Virus record (IMG/VR): IMGVR_UViG_3300032156_000003
Location: 1-64,000 of that record
Length of the DNA stretch: 64,000 bases
Source: a virus
Strand: one strand, 5' to 3'
Shown piece by piece: positions 173-42,190 of this stretch. Positions within the stretch are counted from its first letter, which is position 1, and each line of letters begins with the position of its first letter. Position numbers and translations under genes: made by a program. Under the pieces are notes generated by a model. That model made no database searches. It was not told where the DNA came from and was given only the letters and a program-made list of their open reading frames with translations.

Positions 173-752
173 TATGATGAGAGCGATTTCGTTGGGATTC
201 AAGAGCATGACGAGAAGGCCGGAGAAGCGCGCGACACCGGATGCCAAGGGTCGCATGTTCTGGAAATACTGCCCCAGCGACGCACTTGGATTTCCGGCTC
301 CATCTATTCGATGGGACGACAACAGCGTGCACCTTCGTCCTTGTCACCGCTTCAACGACCTCGTCGCGGCGACGTGCGCGTACTTCCCAGCACAGGTCGG
401 ATGCAGTACATCGTATCGCTTCAAACACATCTCGGTTCATCCGCACGCGAAAATCGGCTGGAAATCCTCTCGCATCATGCCCGCCGCGCTCGCTCCGTTC
501 GTCCTGCGGATCACGTCCGTCCGCGCGGAACGGCTCGGCGAGATCACGGATGAGGACGCGGTACGCGAGGGGATGATGCACTGGGGGACGCGCACCCTGG
601 TCACCATCGGCCCACACGCGCCGCGTGACGTGTTCGGCATCTACTGGAATCGGCTCTACGGCGCACGCCCCCTAGTCGACGCCTGGACGCGCGACCGCGA
701 CAATTGGGTGTGGGTGTACGGGTTCGAAATCGAGGAGAGGAGAATAGGATGA
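147..752 (+). CDS. ASCH/PUA-like domain protein
   Basis: 201 residues from a GTG at 147 chosen because AAAGGAGG lies 7-8 bases upstream; an ATG at 78 is in frame but has no such site. The N-terminus (residues 5-23: F-S-D-D-M-x-R-A-I ... K-S-M-T-R-R) and the C-terminal pattern (R-I-T-S-V-R-A-E-R-L, then E-I-T-D-E-D-A near 132-138, then W-V-W-V-Y-G-F near 187-193) match the ASCH-like proteins common in phage genomes, which carry a PUA-type RNA-binding fold. The substrate is unknown. Its stop overlaps the start of the next gene as ATGA, so the two are probably translationally coupled. Confidence 0.7.
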   Translation: MKRLAFSDDMMRAISLGFKSMTRRPEKRATPDAKGRMFWKYCPSDALGFPAPSIRWDDNSVHLRPCHRFNDLVAATCAYFPAQVGCSTSYRFKHISVHPHAKIGWKSSRIMPAALAPFVLRITSVRAERLGEITDEDAVREGMMHWGTRTLVTIGPHAPRDVFGIYWNRLYGARPLVDAWTRDRDNWVWVYGFEIEERRIG

Positions 753-1327
753 AGGACAACTGGGACAAATTCGTCATCATTTCCGGGGCACTACAGATGG
801 TCGCCTGGATCATCTTACTCGTCACGCTCGTGGTGCTGGTGTCGAGTTGCTCTCCGGTGGCGCACTCCATCACGCCGGTCACTGAGTCGCACTCGCAGAT
901 CACGGCGAGTCAGTACGATGACGCCGAGTATCATTTTGCCGGTGCCGGCAACATGATGCCCATGTCCATCGAACTGCAATCCGAGGCGGACGCCGAGGCG
1001 GATGCCGAATGTCAGCGGATCTTGAACCGCCGGGACACGGCAAGCGCCGTGGTGCTTGGGCTGGTCGGGCTGACCGGTGCAGGCGGGCTGGCGACAATCA
1101 TCCCGAAGGACGCGACGGACGCGGAGCGCAAAGGCTGGGACTTGGGGCTTGGAGTAACGACGCTCGCGGCGGCGACCACGGCCACTATCCTCGGGGCGCT
1201 CGTGCGGAGTTGGAGCGCGGAGTACGAACGGGAGTGCCAGACCGAGACACCCGAACCGGCGGAGCACTTAGCGAGTGATGAGGTGGAGCAAGAGGGAACA
1301 GACGACGCAGGAGGTAGTGAACGATGA
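749..1327 (+). CDS. Membrane lipoprotein-like protein
   Basis: 192 residues. ATG at 749 follows GAGGAGAGG and overlaps the previous stop. A hydrophobic segment at residues 9-31 ends in V-S-S-C (Cys34), a possible lipobox. An Ala/Glu/Asp-rich stretch follows (75-88), then two more hydrophobic segments at about 98-118 and 131-152, and an acidic C-terminal tail. It may be either a lipoprotein with two membrane helices or a three-pass membrane protein. No family recognised. In a phage this could be an envelope-modifying accessory (moron) protein or part of lysis; nothing in the sequence decides. Confidence 0.6.
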   Translation: MKDNWDKFVIISGALQMVAWIILLVTLVVLVSSCSPVAHSITPVTESHSQITASQYDDAEYHFAGAGNMMPMSIELQSEADAEADAECQRILNRRDTASAVVLGLVGLTGAGGLATIIPKDATDAERKGWDLGLGVTTLAAATTATILGALVRSWSAEYERECQTETPEPAEHLASDEVEQEGTDDAGGSER

Positions 1328-1440
1328 TGAGTTCCCATGATACAGTCGTGGTATGTTTGGCGAGGGAATTGTCAGACCTCCTCTACGACGCACTTTCAGG
1401 TGTGGAAAACCAGGTTTGCAAGACGACGTGGTGTTTGTAG
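1324..1440 (+). CDS. Possible 38-residue coupled peptide
   Basis: An ATG at 1324 overlaps the preceding stop as ATGA and opens a 38-codon frame ending in TAG at 1438-1440 (MMSSHDTVVVCLARELSD...). It overlaps the cysteine-rich gene at 1353 in another frame. The start position fits the coupling style of this genome, but there is no other support and the 1353 frame has better evidence. Treat as doubtful. Confidence 0.2.
   Translation: MMSSHDTVVVCLARELSDLLYDALSGVENQVCKTTWCL
1341..1346 (+). promoter_or_regulatory. Possible extended -10 box before the 1353 gene
   Basis: TGATACAGT contains an extended -10 motif (TGn-TACAGT) whose box ends exactly six bases before the ATG at 1353, the spacing seen at several other starts in this window. 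No good -35 element is visible upstream, so this is the weakest of the set. Confidence 0.25.
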
Positions 1441-1580
1441 ATGAAAAGAACTTTTACTACGATGTCGCGTACACTCGAAACTGTAGTTTTCGGGACAATT
1501 TTGGAAACTGTACAAAGCAGTTCACCACCTGTCCTCATCGGGTTATAGATGACGGATACCGAAGTCTAAAAAATGAGTGA
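1353..1580 (+). CDS. Small cysteine-rich protein, paralogue 1
   Basis: 75 residues, base composition more AT-rich than its surroundings. It shares with the protein at 1670 an exact cysteine spacing: C17-x26-C44-[ST]-F-R-D-x2-G-x-C53-T-K-x2-T-T-C60-x-H62. The four Cys plus His suggest metal (zinc) binding or disulfides; there is no signal peptide, which favours metal in the cytoplasm. I found no Shine-Dalgarno sequence; a -10-like box six bases before the ATG suggests a leaderless message. No known family recognised. Retention of the motif in two diverged copies argues that this frame is real. Confidence 0.55.
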   Translation: MFGEGIVRPPLRRTFRCGKPGLQDDVVFVDEKNFYYDVAYTRNCSFRDNFGNCTKQFTTCPHRVIDDGYRSLKNE

Positions 1581-1632
1581 AGGGAATCCATTCCCGCACG
1601 GGAGGAAGGTTCTGTCTCCATACAGTCGGCAC

Positions 1633-1663
1633 TTGAGTTCGGTACCCTGCCACGTGCTACAAT
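1633..1663 (+). promoter_or_regulatory. Promoter before the 1670 gene
   Basis: TTGAGT (1633-1638), a 19-base spacer, then TACAAT (1658-1663) preceded by TGC (extended -10). Six bases separate the -10 box from the GTG at 1670, so the transcript should begin at or next to the start codon. Confidence 0.5.
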
Positions 1664-1669
1664 CCTTCA

Positions 1670-1918
1670 GTGGACCGAGAAGATGAAGTAACCCGTCCTA
1701 TTTCTCTGCCTTCTCCGCGTGGGCCGACGGTTGAGATAGAGTGCCTAACGCAAGACGACGAACCAACCATGCCCATGTTGCTGGTTTCTCGTTGTCGTTG
1801 CGCCAAACCTCCCGAGTCTCCGTGTACGTTTCGGGATGAATCGGGAAGGTGCACCAAGGGCGTCACGACCTGCCGTCATAAAATCGAAGGGAAACAACTT
1901 GACAAGCGCAACCTGTAG
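1670..1918 (+). CDS. Small cysteine-rich protein, paralogue 2
   Basis: 82 residues from GTG. Cysteines at 25, 52, 61 and 68 and His70 repeat the spacing of the 1353 protein, around the conserved core C-T-F-R-D-E-S-G-R-C-T-K and T-T-C-R-H. Two extra Cys (42, 44) are specific to this copy. The N-terminal 20 residues differ completely. It has its own promoter-like sequence and no visible ribosome binding site. Function unknown; a small metal-binding regulatory or host-takeover protein is plausible but unproven. Confidence 0.55.
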   Translation: MDREDEVTRPISLPSPRGPTVEIECLTQDDEPTMPMLLVSRCRCAKPPESPCTFRDESGRCTKGVTTCRHKIEGKQLDKRNL

Positions 1919-1927
1919 CACTATGCT
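1899..1927 (+). promoter_or_regulatory. Promoter for the Asp-rich lipoprotein
   Basis: TTGACA (1899-1904), a 17-base spacer, TATGCT (1922-1927). The start would lie near 1934, leaving a leader of about 13 bases that contains GAGGTG before ATG 1947. An independent promoter in front of a cell-surface gene is typical of a moron. Confidence 0.65.
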
Positions 1928-1946: not shown

Positions 1947-2912
1947 ATGAAGACTATCACGACAATTCTAGCGACCTTGATTCTGGGGTGTTCAGCGAAC
2001 CCGGCGACTGTATACGAGCCCGACGGTGGAGATGCGGGCACCGACGTCGATTCGGACTCGGATGTCGACACGGACACCGATAGTGATGGGGACTCGGGGC
2101 CGGACGCTACGACCGACAGCGACACGGGCACGGACACTGACACTGAGAGTATTTGCCTGTACTTGTGCATATCAGTGAGTAACTGCATGGGTATTGGTGG
2201 TACGCAGCACAGCGAATACACCTGTGATACTGAAGAATTTATTTGCTGTCAGATGGCAGGGACGGACACGGATACCGACACGGACACGGACTCAGATGCC
2301 GACTCTGACACCGATACTGATACAGATATCGATACCGATTCTGATTCCGACACGGATACGGATGTCGATTCTGATACGGACTCTGATTCCGACAGCGATA
2401 CCGATACGGACACCGATACGGACTCCGATGCTGACACTGATACCGATACTGAACCCGACCTCAACGCCTGTGGGTTCGTCGAGATGCCCTCCGGCACAGT
2501 GTGCGACCCTGACACTGGGCAGGTCTGGGAGGCCACTGTAAGCCCTTCCAGCGAGGGCAATTGGGCGTGGGGCTTCTGGTACTACTGCGAGCCATTGACG
2601 CTCGGGGGGTTCGATGATTGGCGGATGCCGACAGAGGATGAGATGGCGGCGTTGTGGCGACTCGACGACCCCATTATACTAGATGGATACGAATGTGATT
2701 GGCCCATGTGGGCTGGGACGGATTGCTGGCAACTCATGTGGTCGGATTACGGATATGCGGAGTTGGGGTACATTCCATCCATGTACGGCTCTGACGTATT
2801 TGATTTTCACTGTTCATCAATCGGAGGAACGGATACGACGGCGTATCCATGCAGAATTAGCAACGTGGCCGTTGGGACTCCATCGCTGTTCACCCGTTGC
2901 GTGCGCGGATGA
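1947..2912 (+). CDS. Asp-Thr/Ser repeat lipoprotein with DUF1566-like end
   Basis: 321 residues. ATG 1947 is chosen because it follows GAGGTG and starts a short signal peptide ending in L-I-L-G-C (Cys15), a lipoprotein processing site. Domains in order: Asp-rich block (about 32-67), a six-Cys insert (C70, C74, C80, C93, C100, C101), a second run of D-T/D-S dipeptides (106-168), then a DUF1566/Lcl C-terminal-like domain (about 183-321) with D-P-D-T-G-Q-V-W, G-F-D-D-W-R-M-P-T and a final R-C-V-R-G. The Asp arrays resemble calcium-binding linkers. The protein should be anchored in the host envelope and exposed. It looks host-derived and non-structural; surface modification or superinfection exclusion are possible roles (inference). 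Confidence 0.75.
   Translation: MKTITTILATLILGCSANPATVYEPDGGDAGTDVDSDSDVDTDTDSDGDSGPDATTDSDTGTDTDTESICLYLCISVSNCMGIGGTQHSEYTCDTEEFICCQMAGTDTDTDTDTDSDADSDTDTDTDIDTDSDSDTDTDVDSDTDSDSDSDTDTDTDTDSDADTDTDTEPDLNACGFVEMPSGTVCDPDTGQVWEATVSPSSEGNWAWGFWYYCEPLTLGGFDDWRMPTEDEMAALWRLDDPIILDGYECDWPMWAGTDCWQLMWSDYGYAELGYIPSMYGSDVFDFHCSSIGGTDTTAYPCRISNVAVGTPSLFTRCVRG
2262..2450 (+). repeat. Degenerate hexanucleotide array coding for D-T/D-S
   Basis: About 31 tandem six-base units of GA(C/T) plus a Thr, Ser, Ala, Val or Ile codon. Third positions vary freely while the Asp/Thr/Ser pattern holds, so the array is kept for its protein rather than being a recent slippage expansion. A shorter related block lies at about 2040-2147. 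Confidence 0.8.
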
Positions 2913-3092: not shown

Positions 3093-3121
3093 TTGACATT
3101 TCCAATCGCTAGCCCTATCTT
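3093..3121 (+). promoter_or_regulatory. Promoter before the pre-terminase genes
   Basis: TTGACA (3093-3098), a 17-base spacer, TATCTT (3116-3121). ATG 3128 begins six bases after the -10 box, predicting a leaderless message. The upstream 12 bases ATCCCGTTTGAC recur in the promoter at 58911-58922. Confidence 0.65.
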
Positions 3122-3127
3122 GTGGGC

Positions 3128-3433
3128 ATGGCACGAATCAAGACGACGCGAAATCACCGTCGGATGCAATCCGCGATACTGCGGTTGACGTCCAAGCTAC
3201 CCGGACGCTGGTCGGCGATGGCGCTGACCGAAGCGCTGTGTGCTGACACGAGGTCGACCTATGGCGGGCGCAACCCATACGGCCTGGTATCCACGACTAA
3301 CTGCGCTCTCCTGCGCCTTGTTGAGATGGGCTACATGGAACGCAAGATGGAAACGACGGACCTCGGAAGGGTGCGATACACCTACGCCATCACGTCCAAG
3401 GGGCGCGTGGCGGAGAAGGAGTTTGCGAAGTGA
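3128..3433 (+). CDS. Winged-helix DNA-binding-like protein
   Basis: 101 residues, basic N-terminus (A-R-I-K-T-T-R-N-H-R-R), then a helical region and a C-terminal pattern L-L-R-L-V-E-M-G-Y-M-E-R-K ... Y-A-I-T-S-K-G-R typical of winged-helix proteins (recognition helix, then wing and 'T-x-K-G' strand). A GTG at 3122 in frame would add two residues but falls before the predicted transcript start. Its place upstream of the large terminase makes it a candidate small terminase subunit or a late-gene regulator; neither is proven. Confidence 0.6.
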   Translation: MARIKTTRNHRRMQSAILRLTSKLPGRWSAMALTEALCADTRSTYGGRNPYGLVSTTNCALLRLVEMGYMERKMETTDLGRVRYTYAITSKGRVAEKEFAK

Positions 3434-3636
3434 GCGGCCTGTCCGTTAAGTGGTCGAAGCGCGAGCGCGACTTGATTTTCAATCTTGATGAAGTAAAAGG
3501 CGCAGACGGGCATCTCCTGTATCAGTGCTTGTGTCTTGGGCGAGACGGACTGTCGTTGACGAAGGAATTGAAGGAGCGCGGGTATGACCTAACGACGCTT
3601 CGTTTCTCTGTGAAAAAGTTGGAGGTTTCCAAGTGA
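3430..3636 (+). CDS. Small helical protein, HTH-like
   Basis: 68 residues from GTG overlapping the previous stop (GTGA). Residues 41-65 (S-L-T-K-E-L-K-E-R-G-Y-D-L-T-T-L-R-F) look like a helix-turn-helix. It sits between the winged-helix protein and a zinc-finger protein, two genes before the terminase, so it could act in DNA packaging recognition or regulation. No family recognised. Confidence 0.55.
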   Translation: MSGLSVKWSKRERDLIFNLDEVKGADGHLLYQCLCLGRDGLSLTKELKERGYDLTTLRFSVKKLEVSK

Positions 3637-3905
3637 CTCCAGAATCCGAAACGAGGGGTGTTCAGTCCAAAGTCGTCATCGAGTATCGACCCAAGCGCAC
3701 GTGCAAGAAGTGTGGGGGGCGCGGCATCAACGGCTACCATACGAAACTCGTCACCACGGCGACCGGCAAGGAGTGGCAGCGCCAAGGTCCGGCGCGGTGC
3801 TCGTGTTGCAAGCCCATCAAGGTCGAAACGGTTGAGGTGCCAGGAGGGGCGACGACAGTAACCGAGACGCCAGTGCATCCTCAGTTGACCGAACCGAAGC
3901 CGTGA
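3633..3905 (+). CDS. Zinc-finger protein before the terminase
   Basis: 90 residues from GTG overlapping the previous stop. It holds C-K-K-C-G-G-R-G (about 27-34) and C-S-C-C (about 61-64), the same chemistry as the DnaJ central zinc domain (C-x2-C-G-x-G), so one zinc site is likely. The C-terminal 25 residues are Thr/Pro-rich and probably disordered. It overlaps the terminase start by four bases. Confidence 0.6.
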   Translation: MTPESETRGVQSKVVIEYRPKRTCKKCGGRGINGYHTKLVTTATGKEWQRQGPARCSCCKPIKVETVEVPGGATTVTETPVHPQLTEPKP

Positions 3906-5500
3906 CCCCCCCCGAACTCACCGTTGACCCGCGATACCGTCCCCCTGTCGGGCATCTGTTCACACCGGGACCGTCCATCGAGCCCGCGACGCCAGCCGAG
4001 CAAGACGCCCGCATGGAGTCGATACGGTGGGCTCGCATTCACGCGGCGCGCAACGACTTCGCGGCGTTCATGGAATACTGCATCGAGGACAGCGAAATCG
4101 GCGGGCCTGTCACGTTGCAGTGGTTTCACGACGAATGGATTGCGGCGCTTGAGCAAAACAAGCGCGTGCTGATTATCGCACCTCGCAGTCACGGCAAGTC
4201 GTCCGTCGTAATCGCCCGCGTCATTTGGGAGCTTGGGCGCAATCCGAACCTGCGAATCAAGATAGCTTGCGAGGACCAACCGGCGGCCGTCAAGCGCCTC
4301 GGTGAAATCAAGCGGCACATCGAGAAGAACCCGCATGTACACGAGGTGTTCCCGAACCTCAAGCCGTCTGCCGATAACTGGTCGAAAACGTCCATCACGG
4401 TACAGCGGACGCTCATCGACAAGGACCCGTCTGTTGAGGCGCAAGGCGTGCTCGGTGGCGCGACTGGCGGGCGCGTGGACATCCTCATTGGTGACGACAT
4501 TGTGGGTCGCAGGAACGCGCTCACGACGCCGGCGTTGCGCGAGTCCGTGATTCAGGCGTGGGAGTCGGACTGGTTGAACCTCGGCGGTCCCGAGTCCCGT
4601 GTGTGGTGCATATGTACTCTGTGGCATCGTCTAGATCTCAACCACAAGATGATGGAGAGCGGGAACTGGAACGTCTGTTTCTACGCCATCACGGGGTACG
4701 CTTCTATCTGGCCGGAGCGCCGCAGCACGGCGTGGTTGCGGGACAGGCGAGCACTCATCGGCGCGACCGAATACGCCCGTGGGTTCGCGAATAAGCCGCA
4801 AGATGAATCCGAGTCCCCGGTTCAGCCGAGTTCGATTGAGTACGTGCGACCCGAGGCAATGCCCGACATGTCCGAGTTGGAAATCTTCACGAGTTACGAC
4901 GTGGCGACAGAGACGGCGGAGCGCAACGACTTCACTGCGGAAGTGGTCATTGCGATTCACCAGGCAACAGAAACGGTGTTCGTCGTTGACGCCGAGAAGC
5001 GGAAGATCACGAGGTCGAAACAATCCGATTGGGTTCAGAAGTCGTACCGCACGTGGCGACCGCGGAGGATTCTCATCGAGTCCATCGGCAACGACCTTGC
5101 ACAGTGGGTGCTCAACGACAACCCGGCGTTGCTCGGAATAGTTGAGAGGGTGAAGAACCTCACGACGAAGGGAAACAAGTTGCAGCGGTTGACGGCCGTG
5201 ACTCCATTCCTCGAACGCGGCAACGTCGTGTTTCTCGACCACTTGGACCCGGACAGTCCGAAGTTCAAACCCGAACGCGGAAATCTCATCGAGGAGTTGC
5301 TAGATTTCGGGATAGCGGCTCACGATGATTTATGTGATTCGTGGACGATGGCGATCGATGCGGCTCGGTTCTACGCGCTTGACCGTTGGGCGGCGCGAGG
5401 TGCTACCCTAGTGGGGCGGGCAGGAAGCGGCGACGAATCCAGTCGGCCGGAGGACCAACGTGAAGAAGACACCGAAGACGGCGACGACGAATACAGATAG
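3902..5500 (+). CDS. terL: Terminase large subunit
   Basis: 532 residues, GTG start overlapping the previous stop. ATPase: Walker A A-P-R-S-H-G-K-S-S at 93-101 and Walker B V-D-I-L-I-G-D-D at 192-199. Nuclease: F-T-S-Y-D-V (Asp333), N-D-F (Asp343), V-V-D (about 361-363) and H-D-D-L-C-D-S (474-480), matching the RNase H-like acidic cluster of terminases. It drives ATP-dependent DNA packaging through the portal and cuts the concatemer. Its length is usual. The portal gene begins 41 bases before the stop. I find no clear small subunit by sequence. Confidence 0.93.
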   Translation: MTPPELTVDPRYRPPVGHLFTPGPSIEPATPAEQDARMESIRWARIHAARNDFAAFMEYCIEDSEIGGPVTLQWFHDEWIAALEQNKRVLIIAPRSHGKSSVVIARVIWELGRNPNLRIKIACEDQPAAVKRLGEIKRHIEKNPHVHEVFPNLKPSADNWSKTSITVQRTLIDKDPSVEAQGVLGGATGGRVDILIGDDIVGRRNALTTPALRESVIQAWESDWLNLGGPESRVWCICTLWHRLDLNHKMMESGNWNVCFYAITGYASIWPERRSTAWLRDRRALIGATEYARGFANKPQDESESPVQPSSIEYVRPEAMPDMSELEIFTSYDVATETAERNDFTAEVVIAIHQATETVFVVDAEKRKITRSKQSDWVQKSYRTWRPRRILIESIGNDLAQWVLNDNPALLGIVERVKNLTTKGNKLQRLTAVTPFLERGNVVFLDHLDPDSPKFKPERGNLIEELLDFGIAAHDDLCDSWTMAIDAARFYALDRWAARGATLVGRAGSGDESSRPEDQREEDTEDGDDEYR

Positions 5501-7280
5501 CGAAGCCTCGCTGCAACTGATAGCCCGCGCGAGTTCCGGCGGAGACGAAGAGGTTGCCAAGCAAGCGTTGCAGGCGATGGTTGACCAGAAGGAGGCGTGG
5601 ACCAACTCGGGTGCGTTGACACCTCGGTATCCGCCGGGGTCGTTGCTGTCCATCGTCGAGAAGTCTTCGATTCTGCCTCAGTGTCTCGACGCGATGGCGA
5701 CGGGAATCGACGGGTGGGGGCATCGCTTCAAGCCGTGTATCGACCTCAACGACAAGGATGTTGAAAACCAGGTGCGCGCGGCCATCGTGTTGGAGCGCGA
5801 GGCGGAAGCGCGCGAGGCGTCGCAGGACAGCGGCGATGAAGATTGGGAGACGGATTACGAGGTGCCGGACGAAGAGGTTGCGGAGCGCCTTGAAATCCTG
5901 TCGCGGCAATTGCCCATCCAGAAGTTTCGCGCGGAGGCGTGGTTCGAGTCCGCGCCGACGGGTGCACCGTTCATCGAATTGCGCCAGCGGATGCGGAAGG
6001 ACCAGCACGGGGTAGGCCACGGCGTGTTCGAGTTCGCGCGGGACAAGACCGGCGACCCGACGCAGGTCGGCTACATCGCGGCGCACACCATCCTTCCGAT
6101 GGCAAAGCAGCCGCCTCCGGTCGAGGTGGACGTTCAGATTCCGGTGTCTCCGATTTCGACGCGCGACGTGGCGCGGGACGTTCAGTTCAGCATCTACGTT
6201 CAGCAAGTCGGCGCGGTGCGAAAATACTTCAAGGAGTTCGGCGACCCGCGTTGCATCTCACAAGCGACTGGTAAATGGTACGACAACGAAGCCGCGATGG
6301 TACGTGCCGAGACGGTCAAGGGCGGGAGGGCGGTGGCGAAGCCCATCCCGGCAACCGAGGTGCTATACTTCCCGCTTCACTCTCCGCTGTCCGTATCGGG
6401 CGAGCCACTGTGGATTGGGCAAGTTCCGAACGTGCTCGGGATACGAGCGGCCGAAGAGGTCAACTTCACCTACTTCGACGACAAGTGCATCCCGCCGGGC
6501 GCGTGGATTATCATCGGCGGCATCTTGAGCCAGGACGTGCGGAAAGAACTGGAGAACCACATCCGCACGAAAATCAAGGGGAGGTCCAACTTCCACACGC
6601 CGCTGATTATCGAGCTTGTCGCACCGCCGGGAGCTCGTGGCGAGAAGGTCGAACAACCCAAGGTAGAGTGGATGTCCTTCCGTGGCGACATGAAAGAGGA
6701 CGCGACCCACCTGCTCTACTGCGCTGCGGAGCGAGACAACGTGCGGAGCGCATTCCGTCTTCCTCGCATTCTGACCGGGGACGTGCAAGACGCCTTGGCG
6801 CGGGCGAACGCCTACGCCTCGATTGAGTTCGCGAACACGCATGTTTTCTCGACGCCGCGCTCGGGGTTCGATTGGGTCATGAACACGAGGCTCATGCCGG
6901 AACTCGGTGTCTACTTGTGGAAGTTCGTGAGCAACGGGCCGGACACGACGGACCCGGAACAGCTTGCGCGGGCCACGGACATCTTCGCGAACCGAGGCGG
7001 GCTCATCCCGGCAGACGTGCGCAGTATCGCCGCCAAGGGCCTCAACGTGGAACTCGACCCTATAGACGCGCCTTGGATGACGCAGCCGTTGGCGTTGACG
7101 CTGGCGGGCTTGGCGGCCGAGCAATTCGGCGTCCCGGCGGACCGCGTGGGTGCGGAGTTGCTTGGGGCGTTCGGACCGGACGGCACACCCGAGAAGCGGG
7201 CGCTGGCGCAAGGCATCTTGAAAGACTACTTCGCGCGGTTCGGCTACGAGTTGGCGGCCGTTCGACACCTGGAAGAGTAG
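5460..7280 (+). CDS. Portal protein, PBSX-like
   Basis: 606 residues from GTG with GGAGG just upstream. The N-terminal part has S-S-I-L-P-Q-C-L-D-A-M and G-W-G-H-R-F; the core has L-Y-F-P-L-H-S-P-L-S-V-S-G-E-P-L-W-I-G and then N-F-T-Y-F-D-D-K-C-I-P-P-G-A, the arrangement seen in PBSX-family portals. The portal forms the dodecameric ring at one capsid vertex, is the docking site for the terminase and connects to the neck. Gene order directly after the terminase agrees. It is somewhat long for the family, with an acidic insert (E-D-W-E-T-D-Y-E) near residue 125. Confidence 0.85.
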   Translation: MKKTPKTATTNTDSEASLQLIARASSGGDEEVAKQALQAMVDQKEAWTNSGALTPRYPPGSLLSIVEKSSILPQCLDAMATGIDGWGHRFKPCIDLNDKDVENQVRAAIVLEREAEAREASQDSGDEDWETDYEVPDEEVAERLEILSRQLPIQKFRAEAWFESAPTGAPFIELRQRMRKDQHGVGHGVFEFARDKTGDPTQVGYIAAHTILPMAKQPPPVEVDVQIPVSPISTRDVARDVQFSIYVQQVGAVRKYFKEFGDPRCISQATGKWYDNEAAMVRAETVKGGRAVAKPIPATEVLYFPLHSPLSVSGEPLWIGQVPNVLGIRAAEEVNFTYFDDKCIPPGAWIIIGGILSQDVRKELENHIRTKIKGRSNFHTPLIIELVAPPGARGEKVEQPKVEWMSFRGDMKEDATHLLYCAAERDNVRSAFRLPRILTGDVQDALARANAYASIEFANTHVFSTPRSGFDWVMNTRLMPELGVYLWKFVSNGPDTTDPEQLARATDIFANRGGLIPADVRSIAAKGLNVELDPIDAPWMTQPLALTLAGLAAEQFGVPADRVGAELLGAFGPDGTPEKRALAQGILKDYFARFGYELAAVRHLEE

Positions 7281-24961: not shown

Positions 24962-27496
24962 ATGCGTACCATCTTCGACATCATAGCGCGAGACAACGCT
25001 AGCGGAACGCTAAACAAAGTGGACCGCTCCATGAAGAACCTGGGGAATAGCGCGCGGACTACTGAGAAGAGTATGGGCGCAGGCGGGGCAGCGAAGGGTG
25101 GGATGTTCGGTCCCGGTGTCGGTGGTCCGATTGGGAAGATGCTGACTGGCGGAGCTATGATGGCGGGTGGCGACAAGATGGCGGACTTCGCCGTCAACGT
25201 CGCGCGCAGTTCTCGTACCATGGAGAACGCGATCGGCACGATGAAAGCCTACGGGGCAACCGAGGCGGACATCAACCGCGTGAGGGACGCGGCGTTCAAG
25301 TCGGGTTTCAATATCGACCGAGCGGCTGAATCGATGGCTCAGTTTGCGCGAGAAGGGTACAACGCTACGCAGTCGGCTCAAATGCTGACACCGGCAATGC
25401 AAATGATGAAGTTCGGTCAGATGGGAGCGGAGGAGTCTTCGAAGTTCCTCGCCGATACACTCGACCAATTCAGCCTTTCGGCGGACCACGGGCAGGACAT
25501 CACGAACAAGATGGCCGTGGCGATGAAAATGTTCGGAGTTCAGGGGCCGGAACTCGCGGAGATGTTCAAGGGCGCGGCGTCCGGTGCTCAATTGGCCGGA
25601 GCCGGATTCGAAGACGTGCTGCTCACCACGGGCATGATAAAGAAGGTGTTCCCGAGCGCGACGAAAGCGGCGATGGCGGCCGGACAAGCGTTCACGCAAC
25701 TCGCCGATAAGAAGGTCCGCAAGGAGCTTCACGCACAAGGAGTGGAAGTTCTCGACGCAAACAAGAAGTTCAAGCCGTTGACGACAATCCTCGCCGAACT
25801 GCTCACGAAGACGTCGAAGATGACGGAATCGCAGCGGGCGTCCGCGTTGGCCTCTGTGTTTTCCAAGCGCTCCGCCGGTGGTCTCTCCGTCATCATGGAC
25901 CAACTGGCGAACGGTGTGACGGACGCCACGGGGAAGATTTACAAGGGCGCGGATGCGGCAACCTACCTCGCTTCGCAGATGGCCAATTCAGAGGGAGCGG
26001 CAGCGGCGATGCGTGAAGCTATCCTGAACACGACAGCCGGGGCAGACGAAGCGTTCGCCAACTCTAAAACACGCATGAACGAGACGTTTGGCAGCGCCAC
26101 CCAAGGCATCTACATCAAGGCCATGCGGGCGCTCGCGGGCGGGGTGAACGCCACGGCCGATGCGATGAACTCGCTTCCGCCTATCGCGCGCACCATCGTT
26201 GTCGGGCTGACCGGTGTCACGGGAGTCTTCATCAAGGCGCTCGGCGCGTGCATCCTTCTCGGGGGTGCCATGCGGATGCTCGGAATTACGTTCCGAGGAT
26301 TGCTGTTCACGGTGGGCAAGGTGCTTCTAGTTGGAATTCCATTGCTAGGGTTGCTTGGAGCCATCGGTGTCGGGTTCTATGGGATGCATCGTGCGGCTGA
26401 AAAGAACGTCGGCGGTACTGGTGGTTTCTTCACGGGTCTGTGGTCGAAAATAAAACTCGGGTTCAAGGGCACGCTTGACCTCATCTCTGGTGGTGGATTG
26501 AGCGAGGCGGTCAAGAAGGACTTGCAGAAGTCTGAAAACAGCGGTGTGGCGAAGTTTCTCGTGTGGGTCACGGGTGCTATCGGGCGCGCAAAGGCGTTCT
26601 TCCAAGGCATGGTAGAAGGGTTTGATGCAGGTTTGGCAAAACTGGACGGACCGTTCTCTCGTTTCAAGTCAACGCTCATGGGGATCTTTGGTTTTAGCGA
26701 TACGAGCGACCCAGCAAAGCAGATGGACGAATGGAAGAATGCTGGGGCTAGTCTAGGAGGTGGACTCGCCGAGTTGTCGGCGACTGTCATGGACCTTTCA
26801 ACGCGTGCGCTTGGTTCTCTCAAGCAAGTTTTCAAGGACATCTCACTCAAGGACGTAGCGTCTGGACTGAAAACCATCGTGAGTCTTTTTCAAACAATGG
26901 CCAAGGCGGCGCAGTGGGTTGCGGATGCTTTCACAACAGTCGTCGATATGAAGAACGCAGCCTTCACTATCGGCAAGGGTGCTGAGAACATGAGCGCCGC
27001 CGAAATGCTTGGAGTAACGCGCGGGGCAGGAGGATTGCAGGCTAGAAAGAATCTGGCTATGTCCTTCGAAAACACGGACATGATGGTCCAGTTGGGTTTG
27101 ATCGACAAGGCCGCCGGACAGGCGCAGAAAGTGTCGGCGTACAAATTTCAGTCCGGTGTATCCACGGTTGGGAATATCGAAACACTAAAAGGTATCGGAG
27201 ATTTTTTCAAAGGTCCATCTGACAAGATAGCTTCTAAACTTACTGGAATACCAGTTGAACAATTTGGTGGAAATCGCGGTGGTCCAAACAATACGGCGGA
27301 ACTAGCGCAGAAAAAAATAGGCGACGGTCTAATGAGCACGGCAGCCGCGTTGAGCAAACTTGCAGATATGGGATTCCAGGTAAATGTTGATGGTCAGACA
27401 TTTGGCAAGGTTGTGTCCAACGTAAAACATGAATCTGATGAACGTAGTTATCAAGAAGATCCTTTTCCGTCCGAACCTGTTACGGTTTGGAGATAG
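24962..27496 (+). CDS. Tape measure protein
   Basis: 844 residues. Starts I-F-D-I-I-A-R-D-N-A-S-G-T-L-N-K-V-D-R-S, typical of TP901-type tape measures, with long helical Ala/Met/Lys-rich stretches and a hydrophobic region of about three helices at 401-475. It sets tail length and leaves the tail with the DNA; at about 1.5 A per residue the tail would be near 125 nm (inference). The final 100 codons (27180-27490) are clearly AT-richer than the rest. Confidence 0.85.
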   Translation: MRTIFDIIARDNASGTLNKVDRSMKNLGNSARTTEKSMGAGGAAKGGMFGPGVGGPIGKMLTGGAMMAGGDKMADFAVNVARSSRTMENAIGTMKAYGATEADINRVRDAAFKSGFNIDRAAESMAQFAREGYNATQSAQMLTPAMQMMKFGQMGAEESSKFLADTLDQFSLSADHGQDITNKMAVAMKMFGVQGPELAEMFKGAASGAQLAGAGFEDVLLTTGMIKKVFPSATKAAMAAGQAFTQLADKKVRKELHAQGVEVLDANKKFKPLTTILAELLTKTSKMTESQRASALASVFSKRSAGGLSVIMDQLANGVTDATGKIYKGADAATYLASQMANSEGAAAAMREAILNTTAGADEAFANSKTRMNETFGSATQGIYIKAMRALAGGVNATADAMNSLPPIARTIVVGLTGVTGVFIKALGACILLGGAMRMLGITFRGLLFTVGKVLLVGIPLLGLLGAIGVGFYGMHRAAEKNVGGTGGFFTGLWSKIKLGFKGTLDLISGGGLSEAVKKDLQKSENSGVAKFLVWVTGAIGRAKAFFQGMVEGFDAGLAKLDGPFSRFKSTLMGIFGFSDTSDPAKQMDEWKNAGASLGGGLAELSATVMDLSTRALGSLKQVFKDISLKDVASGLKTIVSLFQTMAKAAQWVADAFTTVVDMKNAAFTIGKGAENMSAAEMLGVTRGAGGLQARKNLAMSFENTDMMVQLGLIDKAAGQAQKVSAYKFQSGVSTVGNIETLKGIGDFFKGPSDKIASKLTGIPVEQFGGNRGGPNNTAELAQKKIGDGLMSTAAALSKLADMGFQVNVDGQTFGKVVSNVKHESDERSYQEDPFPSEPVTVWR

Positions 27497-39751: not shown

Positions 39752-42190
39752 ATGGACTCACTCAATTTCTACTATCTTCAGAGGGTGCTCGAATCCGAGC
39801 TTGACCTTGTAGAGACGAACACGTCAACGGCGCTCAAGAAGGCGCGGCAAGACCTCGGCATCGTCGGGATGCACGACGGCGGAGTGGTGACGCAGAACGC
39901 ACCACCAGACCTATCTGTGCTCGTGAGCGGCCCGGCGCTTGGCACAGACCCAGACGGCGAGCGGTTGTACTGGGCGGCGGCGCAGACGGTGGATTGCACA
40001 CAAGACCATCTAGGCGCTCCAACAACCGTCGTTGGAGCTGGCAACGAACGTTGGATTTCAGTCATCGCCGAATACGACCAGACGCTTGCGCTACCAGTCA
40101 CGGATGGGAACGGCGTCACGGTCTATACGCGCGTCTACGATTCGTTCAATCTGTACGTGACAATGGCGACAGAGCAGGCGTTCGGCGCGAACGTAAAACC
40201 GGCTCTCCCATCCGACGGCGTGTTACTCGCGGACATCCGGTTGGTGTTCGGTGGAGTTCAGATTCTCGCGGCGGACATAAATATTGTCGCGGCAGGAATC
40301 ACGAATCGTCGGCAAGATCTCGTGCGGTACGCGGGAACTTCCATCCCTACGGCGGACTACGGCAACCTAGTCGACGCTGTGTTAGCGTTGTTTGGCTACG
40401 TGGACGCTCTATCGACGGGAGTAGGGGTCGTGTTTGCGGCGACCGGAGCATGGCGTGACGCTTCTGCAATTGCAGCCGTCACGGTCAGCGGGGCCATCAA
40501 CGAAATCGTATCTGACCTTCAGGTAGATGCCGGTGCGGCGCGCACGGGTTCGGCTGCGCACGTCACGGCCGGAGGCTTCTGCGACCTTGCGAATGCGGCG
40601 TTGCAAACGAACCTAAACACAATCGCCGATAATGTCGCGGGGCACATCAACGGTGGTGCTCCGGCGCATCCAGCGACTTCTATTACGACGGCTGCCATTC
40701 CCGGTGCTCCGGAATCCGAGGCCGGTCCGTCAACGGTCCAGGCTGTGCTATCTGATGTGTTTGGGCATCTGAATGCTAGAACCGAACGCGCGAGCGATGA
40801 AGACATTAGTGGCGCATGGATGTTCAGCAATGGTTTGACGGGCAACAACAGAGCAAGAGCAGAAGAGAACCTACTCCTAACGAATGCTCCGTGGGTCAAT
40901 TCGTTGGAAGGAGGTTCCATACCTCCCAAAGATGATATGACAAATGTGGCATCAGGATTGTATTCAGGTGCTAACGCATGGTGTCATTCTTTTTCAGGTT
41001 ACAATTCCGTAAATTCCACACAGATCGCAGATATGTGTACCGTTTTCGAACCGGCCAGTGGAAGAAGATATATAATCCTGTTAATCACGGATACATGCTC
41101 AATTGAGGTTAGACGCGCAGAGAATCCGAATGAAGGTGTGACTACAATCGCATTGGCAGGTCTACCGGCAGGAGCATGGATTCCGGATTCGTGTTGTTCA
41201 GACGGTACTAATATATATGTTCTTTTCCACAAGGACGCCGGAGCTGCTACCGTTCATCAAGTTCAAGCTTACAACATGGATGGCTCGGTCAAGGCCGGAT
41301 GGCTGGCGTTTGGTTTGGGGACTGGTTCCGCGCTCGCGGGGACCGGATATTTTGGAGGAGGAGCAACGCCATCTTTGGCGGCCAGCGACCGAATCAAAGT
41401 GGTATCGATGACGAGCCTAGGTCATGCAACGTCCAGGCTTGCTGTAGCATGTTCCTGGGTCCCGTCGGTAGTCGGTGGATTAGGTGCATCTCCTTGTATT
41501 CAGATGCTGAATCTCGCAGACGGTTCTACTTTCGCGAACAGCGCTGGATGCGGGGATCAACCGGAACTAGCCACGAGGTATCCCTGCGGAGGTCTTGCAT
41601 CGGATGGCATTCGCGTGTTCTGGTCGAATTATTCAGTGGCCGGTGGCACATCTTATGTGTCACATTGTAACATTGCGGATGCAACAGTGGACCCAGGTCT
41701 CACCGATTTTCCATTTTCGAATGGAGGAGAAGAGTGTAGAGAAATAATAAATGATGGAACTTGTCTATGGACCAGCAATGTAGATTTGAACACGCATCTT
41801 ACTTGTTATCACTTAGACAGAGAAATAAAATTTTTACATTCAATTCCTTCTTGCGCCCCAGTTCACATGACGTTTGATGGTCTAAACATATGGCTCCAGG
41901 AACTTAGAGATGTCGATTTTGCAGGGACAACTTTTGCGACTCAACTTTTGAAAATACCTTGTGCATCTGCAAGAAATCACGACAGTGTATCCACTGACAC
42001 ATGGGAATTGAGTCAATTGGTAAGCAATTTGATGACTCATGAAGAAGTGGATACTGTAGTCCCTGACTCTGAATTCTTCGGTCATATGATGTTTGATGGC
42101 GCAGACATTTGGACAATACTGGACAACAGGTTACATGGGGCGAATCTTGGTGGTATTGTGCGAAAAATTCCTCGCGCCGGGATGAGGTAA
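39752..42190 (+). CDS. Tail fibre with AT-rich propeller-like C-terminus
   Basis: 812 residues. N-terminal part (1-340) is a fibre shaft and attachment region with normal GC. From about residue 345 (near 40780) composition and codon use change, reaching roughly 40-45% GC by eye, and the protein becomes a repeated-blade sequence: W-I-P-D-S-C-C-S-D-G-T-N-I-Y-V-L, C-G-G-L-A-S-D-G-I-R-V-F-W, I-N-D-G-T-C-L-W-T-S, M-T-F-D-G-L-N-I-W-L, M-M-F-D-G-A-D-I-W-T. The repeated D-G-x-x-[IV]-[WY] looks like a beta-propeller. Probably the receptor-binding head, acquired by exchange. Confidence 0.7.
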   Translation: MDSLNFYYLQRVLESELDLVETNTSTALKKARQDLGIVGMHDGGVVTQNAPPDLSVLVSGPALGTDPDGERLYWAAAQTVDCTQDHLGAPTTVVGAGNERWISVIAEYDQTLALPVTDGNGVTVYTRVYDSFNLYVTMATEQAFGANVKPALPSDGVLLADIRLVFGGVQILAADINIVAAGITNRRQDLVRYAGTSIPTADYGNLVDAVLALFGYVDALSTGVGVVFAATGAWRDASAIAAVTVSGAINEIVSDLQVDAGAARTGSAAHVTAGGFCDLANAALQTNLNTIADNVAGHINGGAPAHPATSITTAAIPGAPESEAGPSTVQAVLSDVFGHLNARTERASDEDISGAWMFSNGLTGNNRARAEENLLLTNAPWVNSLEGGSIPPKDDMTNVASGLYSGANAWCHSFSGYNSVNSTQIADMCTVFEPASGRRYIILLITDTCSIEVRRAENPNEGVTTIALAGLPAGAWIPDSCCSDGTNIYVLFHKDAGAATVHQVQAYNMDGSVKAGWLAFGLGTGSALAGTGYFGGGATPSLAASDRIKVVSMTSLGHATSRLAVACSWVPSVVGGLGASPCIQMLNLADGSTFANSAGCGDQPELATRYPCGGLASDGIRVFWSNYSVAGGTSYVSHCNIADATVDPGLTDFPFSNGGEECREIINDGTCLWTSNVDLNTHLTCYHLDREIKFLHSIPSCAPVHMTFDGLNIWLQELRDVDFAGTTFATQLLKIPCASARNHDSVSTDTWELSQLVSNLMTHEEVDTVVPDSEFFGHMMFDGADIWTILDNRLHGANLGGIVRKIPRAGMR

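Follow-up and report, generated by a model that had tools for sequence, protein, structure and literature searches.

Two small open reading frames lie side by side just upstream of the terminase gene in a virus record, and raise the question of whether they are genuine members of one protein family, how they are expressed and what they might do. The stretch analysed, called the window, comprises bases 1-64000 of the 86,329-base record. It encodes a tailed phage, with a terminase large subunit (terL, 3902-5500; phrog_38, E=3e-73), a portal protein (5460-7280) and a tape measure protein (24962-27496).

Two small genes and their common core

Both open reading frames were found on the plus strand where the initial annotation had placed them. 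P1 (1353..1580) encodes a Cys4-His mini-protein of 75 residues with the sequence RCGKP-x23-C-S-F-R-D-N-F-G-N-C-T-K-Q-F-T-T-C-P-H, and P2 (1670..1918), which starts with GTG, encodes one of 82 residues with RCAKP-x4-C-T-F-R-D-E-S-G-R-C-T-K-G-V-T-T-C-R-H. They share a core of 21 residues, C-[ST]-F-R-D-x2-G-x-C-T-K-x2-T-T-C-x-H, that is identical at 12 positions (BLASTP E=6e-8). The local alignment score of 77 was reached by 0 of 2000 shuffled versions of P2 (shuffle maximum 46), which bears out the common core proposed for these paralogues. The core pattern, written after both genes had been seen, occurs twice in the window and in none of 100 shuffles, and a profile search of the entire record returned P1 and P2 as the sole two copies. 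Their 21 core codons differ at 5, 6 and 12 first, second and third positions, a mild bias to the third. Because outside the core R-C-x-K-P alone is convincingly common to both, P1 and P2 appear to be distantly related, and a recent duplication is not indicated.

A further member was found when IMG/VR was scanned with the terminase. This gave three loci, among which only L007 reaches the upstream region. In this record of 93,507 bases, whose TerL is 88% identical, an orthologue of P2 of 59 residues (4135-4314) lies between the same two lipoprotein genes, and its start aligns with the GTG of P2. A profile search of the complete L007 record returned this orthologue as a single copy; P1 was absent. 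Over 53 aligned codons the dN/dS of P2 and its orthologue was 0.07-0.10 by three methods (dN and dS of 0.115 and 1.675 by NG86, 0.129 and 1.299 by YN00, and 0.104 and 1.365 by LWL85), and the differences at the three codon positions numbered 7, 5 and 27. These values show that P2 codes for protein and evolves under purifying selection.

The two mini-proteins had been described as keeping an identical spacing C-x26-C-x8-C-x6-C-x-H while all other residues differ. When P1, P2 and the L007 orthologue were aligned with one another, the His and four of the Cys fell in register in 3/3 members, and the first conserved Cys is that of R-C-x-K-P. It precedes the core by 7 residues in P2 and the L007 orthologue and by 26 in P1, the spacer between R-C-x-K-P and the core Cys being 4 residues in P2 and 23 in P1. 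The pattern that holds for all three members is R-C-x-K-P-x(4 or 23)-C-x-F-R-D-x2-G-x-C-x-K-x2-T-T-C-x-H. Counted from the core Cys, upstream Cys lie at offsets of 27, 10 and 8 in P2, 27 in P1 and 8 in the L007 orthologue. C-x26-C was rejected as a homologous spacing: C25 of P2 sits in a P2-specific insertion (1730..1795, plus strand; about residues 21-42, ends approximate) that is missing from the L007 orthologue, and the aligned Cys is C44. The chance that one of the three upstream Cys of P2 falls on the matching offset is roughly 6%. Thus C-x8-C-x6-C-x-H stands and C-x26-C is a coincidence; likewise, the L007 orthologue, a homologue in which the same spacing was sought, has the former and lacks the latter. 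The claim that the remaining residues all differ goes too far, since R-C-x-K-P matches as well and the N-terminus does so weakly. When the N-terminus of P1 (IVRP---PLRRTFRCGKP) was compared with that of the L007 orthologue (LTRPITLPPRQPPRCAKP), 43 of 5000 shuffles were as good, and this likeness supports the ATG at 1353. Between P1 and P2 the N-terminal likeness is not significant (437/5000 shuffles reach the score).

P1 and P2 differ from their surroundings in composition. Their GC contents are 44.3% and 54.6%, respectively, against 59.3% for the window, and 0.94% of the 228-bp windows are as low in GC as P1 or lower. Neither has a GC3 as high as that of terL, lipoprotein A and a winged-helix gene (GC3 of P2, 0.54). 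The lowest-GC stretch of the window lies elsewhere, at 41611-42128 (37-41%), inside an ORF (39752-42190) with no PHROG match at 0.01.

Could P2 alone be functional, P1 being an incidental paralogue, or one in decay, with a frame that is open by chance? P1 is absent from L007, has in common with P2 just the 21 residues and R-C-x-K-P, and is devoid of a GC3 rise (0.51/0.40/0.43 by codon position vs 0.61/0.45/0.74 in terL). However, GC3 is low in P2 also, the differences between the two cores lean to third codon positions, and P1 has retained all five of the residues proposed as ligands, F-R-D/G/T-K/T-T of the core, and a TGnTAnnnT placed exactly 6 nt from its start. A chance frame is therefore unlikely, and we regard both P1 and P2 as real genes.

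Start-adjacent -10 boxes

Each gene had been credited with its own promoter-like start. An extended -10-like sequence, TGaTACAGT (1338..1352, plus strand), places a -10 at 1341-1346, exactly 6 nt before the ATG of P1, where a Shine-Dalgarno sequence is lacking; TGcTACAAT (1655..1669, plus strand) places a -10 at 1658-1663, again exactly 6 nt before the GTG of P2. TGnTAnnnT at exactly 6 nt was found at 3 of the 3,096 ATG, GTG and TTG triplets on the plus strand of the window (1353, 1670 and 33820), so that the reported boxes, TACAGT and TACAAT, make up two of the three sites. At that rate one would expect about 5e-5 adjacent pairs in a set of 60 starts, by a test devised after the boxes had been seen. 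TAnnnT at 5-8 nt was present at three of the 60 start positions tested, those of P1, P2 and ATG 3128; a Shine-Dalgarno-like sequence was found at 0/3 of these vs 24/60 of the starts tested. No good -35-like hexamer was detected at 16-18 nt before P1 or P2. ATG 3128 belongs to a winged-helix-like gene with a weak PadR-like match, and is preceded at exactly 6 nt by the promoter TTGACA-17-TATCTT (promoter and gene, 3093..3433, plus strand).

The signal recurs in L007. The P2 orthologue there has TGcTAGACT-6-ATG, in the same place as the P2 box, and its start is the one among 658 start triplets of L007 with an extended site at 6 nt. Between the two phages the -10 has drifted from TACAAT to TAGACT with its position unchanged, as expected of a functional -10. 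The start-adjacent -10 of the winged-helix gene is conserved too (TTGACA-17-TACATT-6-ATG 5448 in L007). A TAnnnT at about 6 nt and the lack of a Shine-Dalgarno sequence, the signature of leaderless genes, are thus common to P1, P2, the winged-helix gene at 3128 and the two L007 orthologues. Judged by these signals, P1, P2, the L007 orthologue and the winged-helix gene look leaderless, and the separate promoter-like starts claimed for P1 and P2 are supported, the L007 orthologue of P2 keeping the signal. Both the start-adjacent -10 and the P1/P2 family can be considered well supported.

Leaderless genes with a start-adjacent -10 are described in the literature (PMC12340547, PMC3160421), where a distance of about 6-7 bp is reported for Deinococcus. 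P1 and P2 resemble such genes in that TAnnnT lies 6 nt ahead of the start and a Shine-Dalgarno sequence is missing, but they are phage genes, and the arrangement concerns 3/60 tested starts. A -10 that stays fixed at 6 nt while its letters drift between two phages offers a direct test case for leaderless expression in an uncultured phage.

By their sequence, the flanking genes look like envelope lipoproteins. Lipoprotein-like protein A (749..1327, plus strand; L007 counterpart 3477-4103) has an N-terminal hydrophobic segment and LVSSC. Lipoprotein B (1947..2912, plus strand) has a signal/lipobox-like LILGC, long DTD/DSD (Asp-Thr/Ser-Asp) repeats and a partial Lcl_C domain match (PF07603) below the cut-off. 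A sigma70-like promoter, TTGACA-17-TATGCT (1899..1927, plus strand), lies ahead of lipoprotein B, within the 3' end of P2, and is followed by GAGGTG and a leader, unlike the start-adjacent boxes of P1 and P2; its hexamers and spacing are identical in L007. The envelope-protein neighbours named by the initial annotation are therefore retained in the sense that both flanking genes carry lipobox-like sequences (LVSSC and LILGC). In L007, an RRXRR-domain protein (979-2151; PF14239, E 3e-32) that is IscB/IsrB-like by eye is encoded upstream of the P2 orthologue.

Phage morons are accessory genes with their own promoter. P1 and P2 resemble them in being inserted between conserved genes, in their low GC, in having their own promoter-like signal and in varying between relatives, and differ from them in that no terminator-like site was found after either gene, a -10 box being present before each. 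P1 is moron-like because of its low GC and its absence from the same place in L007, whereas P2 is present in both phages. No tyrosine integrase (PF00589) was detected in either of the two records, so that a moron acting in a lysogen is a conjecture.

Search for relatives

No relatives of P1 or P2 were found in the family libraries, the PDB, 50,697 phages or 84,980 genomes, and IMG/VR gave one doubtful candidate. In Pfam, no family reached E<=10 with P1, P2 or the L007 orthologue; PHROGs, NCBIfam and PADLOC gave nothing beyond noise, and the best E in a PDB profile search was 0.77. With no convincing match in any family library, the family is indeed unrecognised. By tblastn against INPHARED, P2 matched 25 records (best E 2) and P1 matched 12 (best E 0.3), all judged to be chance, though not each was read. 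The top match of P2, in Pseudomonas phage Kremar, lies opposite annotated genes; the remaining ones came from parts of integrases and tail fibres and from other records, and were treated as chance, as were two weak plasmid records.

When IMG/VR was scanned with P2, a single locus (L003) was returned, a 9-residue match that was read as DNA only and judged spurious. The scans with P1 alone and with the core pair A2 gave none, and the scan with the L007 orthologue gave its own contig only. A pattern requiring C-T yielded two stretches of one sequence, in which the match is a 28-residue frame inside a long ORF on the opposite strand. A relaxed core pattern yielded five stretches (L032-L036). Among these, L033 is the L007 contig already described, which makes it the positive control of the scan; L032 and L034 share a single sequence that lies under a frame of 1130 residues, and in L035 the motif is interrupted by a stop. 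The fifth, L036 6210-6398, is a gene-like ORF of 62 residues amid small genes of an AT-rich phage (CIYRDKRGNCYFEGTRCWH). It keeps the spacing C-x8-C-x6-C-x-H and lacks the K, the T-T and R-C-x-K-P. It has 10/21 identities with P1 (E about 1e-5 for a single comparison with an ORF selected by the pattern itself), and itself found nothing convincing in INPHARED, Pfam or PHROG. Possibly it is a distant relative, or else convergent.

Among 84,980 species the relaxed pattern gave 17 stretches, which were judged to be chance; a longer frame overlaps 17/17 and four have stops in the motif. This pattern is strict, and distant relatives of P1 and P2 could escape it. A profile search of 608 genomes from three phyla (297, 294 and 17), which may not be those of the host and for which often only 25 candidates were scored per genome, gave 0 matches at 1e-4. 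In the literature, searched with queries other than the motif letters, no paper on such a protein was found. P1 and P2 thus represent an undescribed family that is so far confined to two phage records.

Proposed role of the mini-proteins

No signal-like hydrophobic segment was seen by eye at the N-terminus of the mini-proteins. This, together with the invariant four Cys and His and the short length of the proteins, suggests one cytosolic zinc site. Zinc binding by P1 and P2 is likely on these features; that there is a single site is less certain because CxxC pairs are lacking and the spacing of the first Cys is variable. In the reading proposed here, P1 and P2 would have a promoter each and yield leaderless mRNAs whose synthesis does not depend on the late operon. 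In the cytosol, a single zinc ion would be coordinated by the His and the four Cys, and the C-x8-C pair may close a hairpin over F-R-D-x2-G. The resulting compact module might bind to a protein or a nucleic acid, the likeliest partner being a regulatory factor of the phage or the host. A net charge close to zero (-0.5 to +1.6) makes nucleic acid the less favoured partner. The two AlphaFold2 models had a mean pLDDT of 47.6 and 48.8 and are not usable as structures. P1 would be an extra copy, dating from an ancient tandem duplication or acquired by exchange with a related phage. Taken as a whole, the picture of an orphan family (59-82 residues) in an accessory, moron-like slot, whose members are cytosolic, zinc-knuckle-like, zinc-binding, leaderless and independently expressed, with P1 as an extra copy, has in our estimate an even chance of being correct. 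Rather doubtful is the bolder version, in which the pre-terminase block forms a separate leaderless expression class and the Cys4-His mini-proteins are a new metal-binding fold working with the winged-helix regulator, independent of the late operon.

Perhaps the nearest working analogue is Com of phage Mu, a small zinc finger that activates translation of the mom mRNA (PMC6483171). Like Com, P1 and P2 are phage-encoded, small, single-domain and Cys-rich proteins proposed to bind zinc and to regulate. P1 and P2 differ from it in that they have no Pfam match at E<=10 and no CxxC pairs, and no mom-like neighbour was seen; a sequence link does not exist. The SWIM zinc finger has the motif C-x-C-x(n)-C-x-H. 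P2 alone fits it (C42-x-C44-x23-C68-x-H70); SWIM was rejected for the family, as the first Cys is missing in P1 and the L007 orthologue (2/3 members) and there is no Pfam match.

The lipoprotein-like genes on both sides, the abundance of Cys and the lack of a match to any metal-binding family would also agree with small redox or disulfide proteins that act outside the cytosol alongside the lipoproteins, for example in superinfection exclusion, and do not bind zinc. This is improbable, as the N-terminus is not signal peptide-like by eye, the core ends with C-x-H in 3/3 members, as would rather be expected of a metal ligand, and P1 and P2 have expression signals distinct from those of the lipoproteins.

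Phage inhibitors of host functions are typically small, lineage-restricted, separately promoted accessory genes. P1 and P2 share these traits, and cellular relatives were not found in the genomes searched, but that they are Cys-rich counter-defence or host-takeover inhibitors, the two copies blocking two host proteins, is just as improbable, since PADLOC gave no match, L007 has a single copy, and the genes lie near the terminase, away from the defence-like genes to the right of the window. The initial annotation had argued from the duplication for two targets or two conditions and for a host-directed role; neither is supported, L007 managing with one copy. The finding brings one more small-protein family, undescribed and open to test, to the many accessory proteins of phages. 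Apart from the leaderless case and a tractable small-protein target, it is one orphan Cys-rich phage family among many.

The part of the record to the right of the window was found to contain a type IV CRISPR-like module (L046 5963-9606, equal to record 69963-73606) with Csf1/Cas8-like (E 8e-19), Csf2/Cas7-like (5e-65) and Csf3/Cas5-like (6e-37) genes. A CysH-like PAPS reductase (PF01507) adjoins these Csf genes; an adjacent CysH is known for type IV-B. Two more PAPS-reductase-like (CysH/DndC/BrxP-like) genes at L046 3593-4438 and 11313-12395 bring their number to three, and a helicase-like ORF (L046 12963-14741) is similar to the ZorD and DpdE models. Near the record end, an IS1-type transposase (L046 15267-16094, minus strand) is accompanied by a TnpB/Cas12f-like C-terminal fragment (L047 1567-2115).
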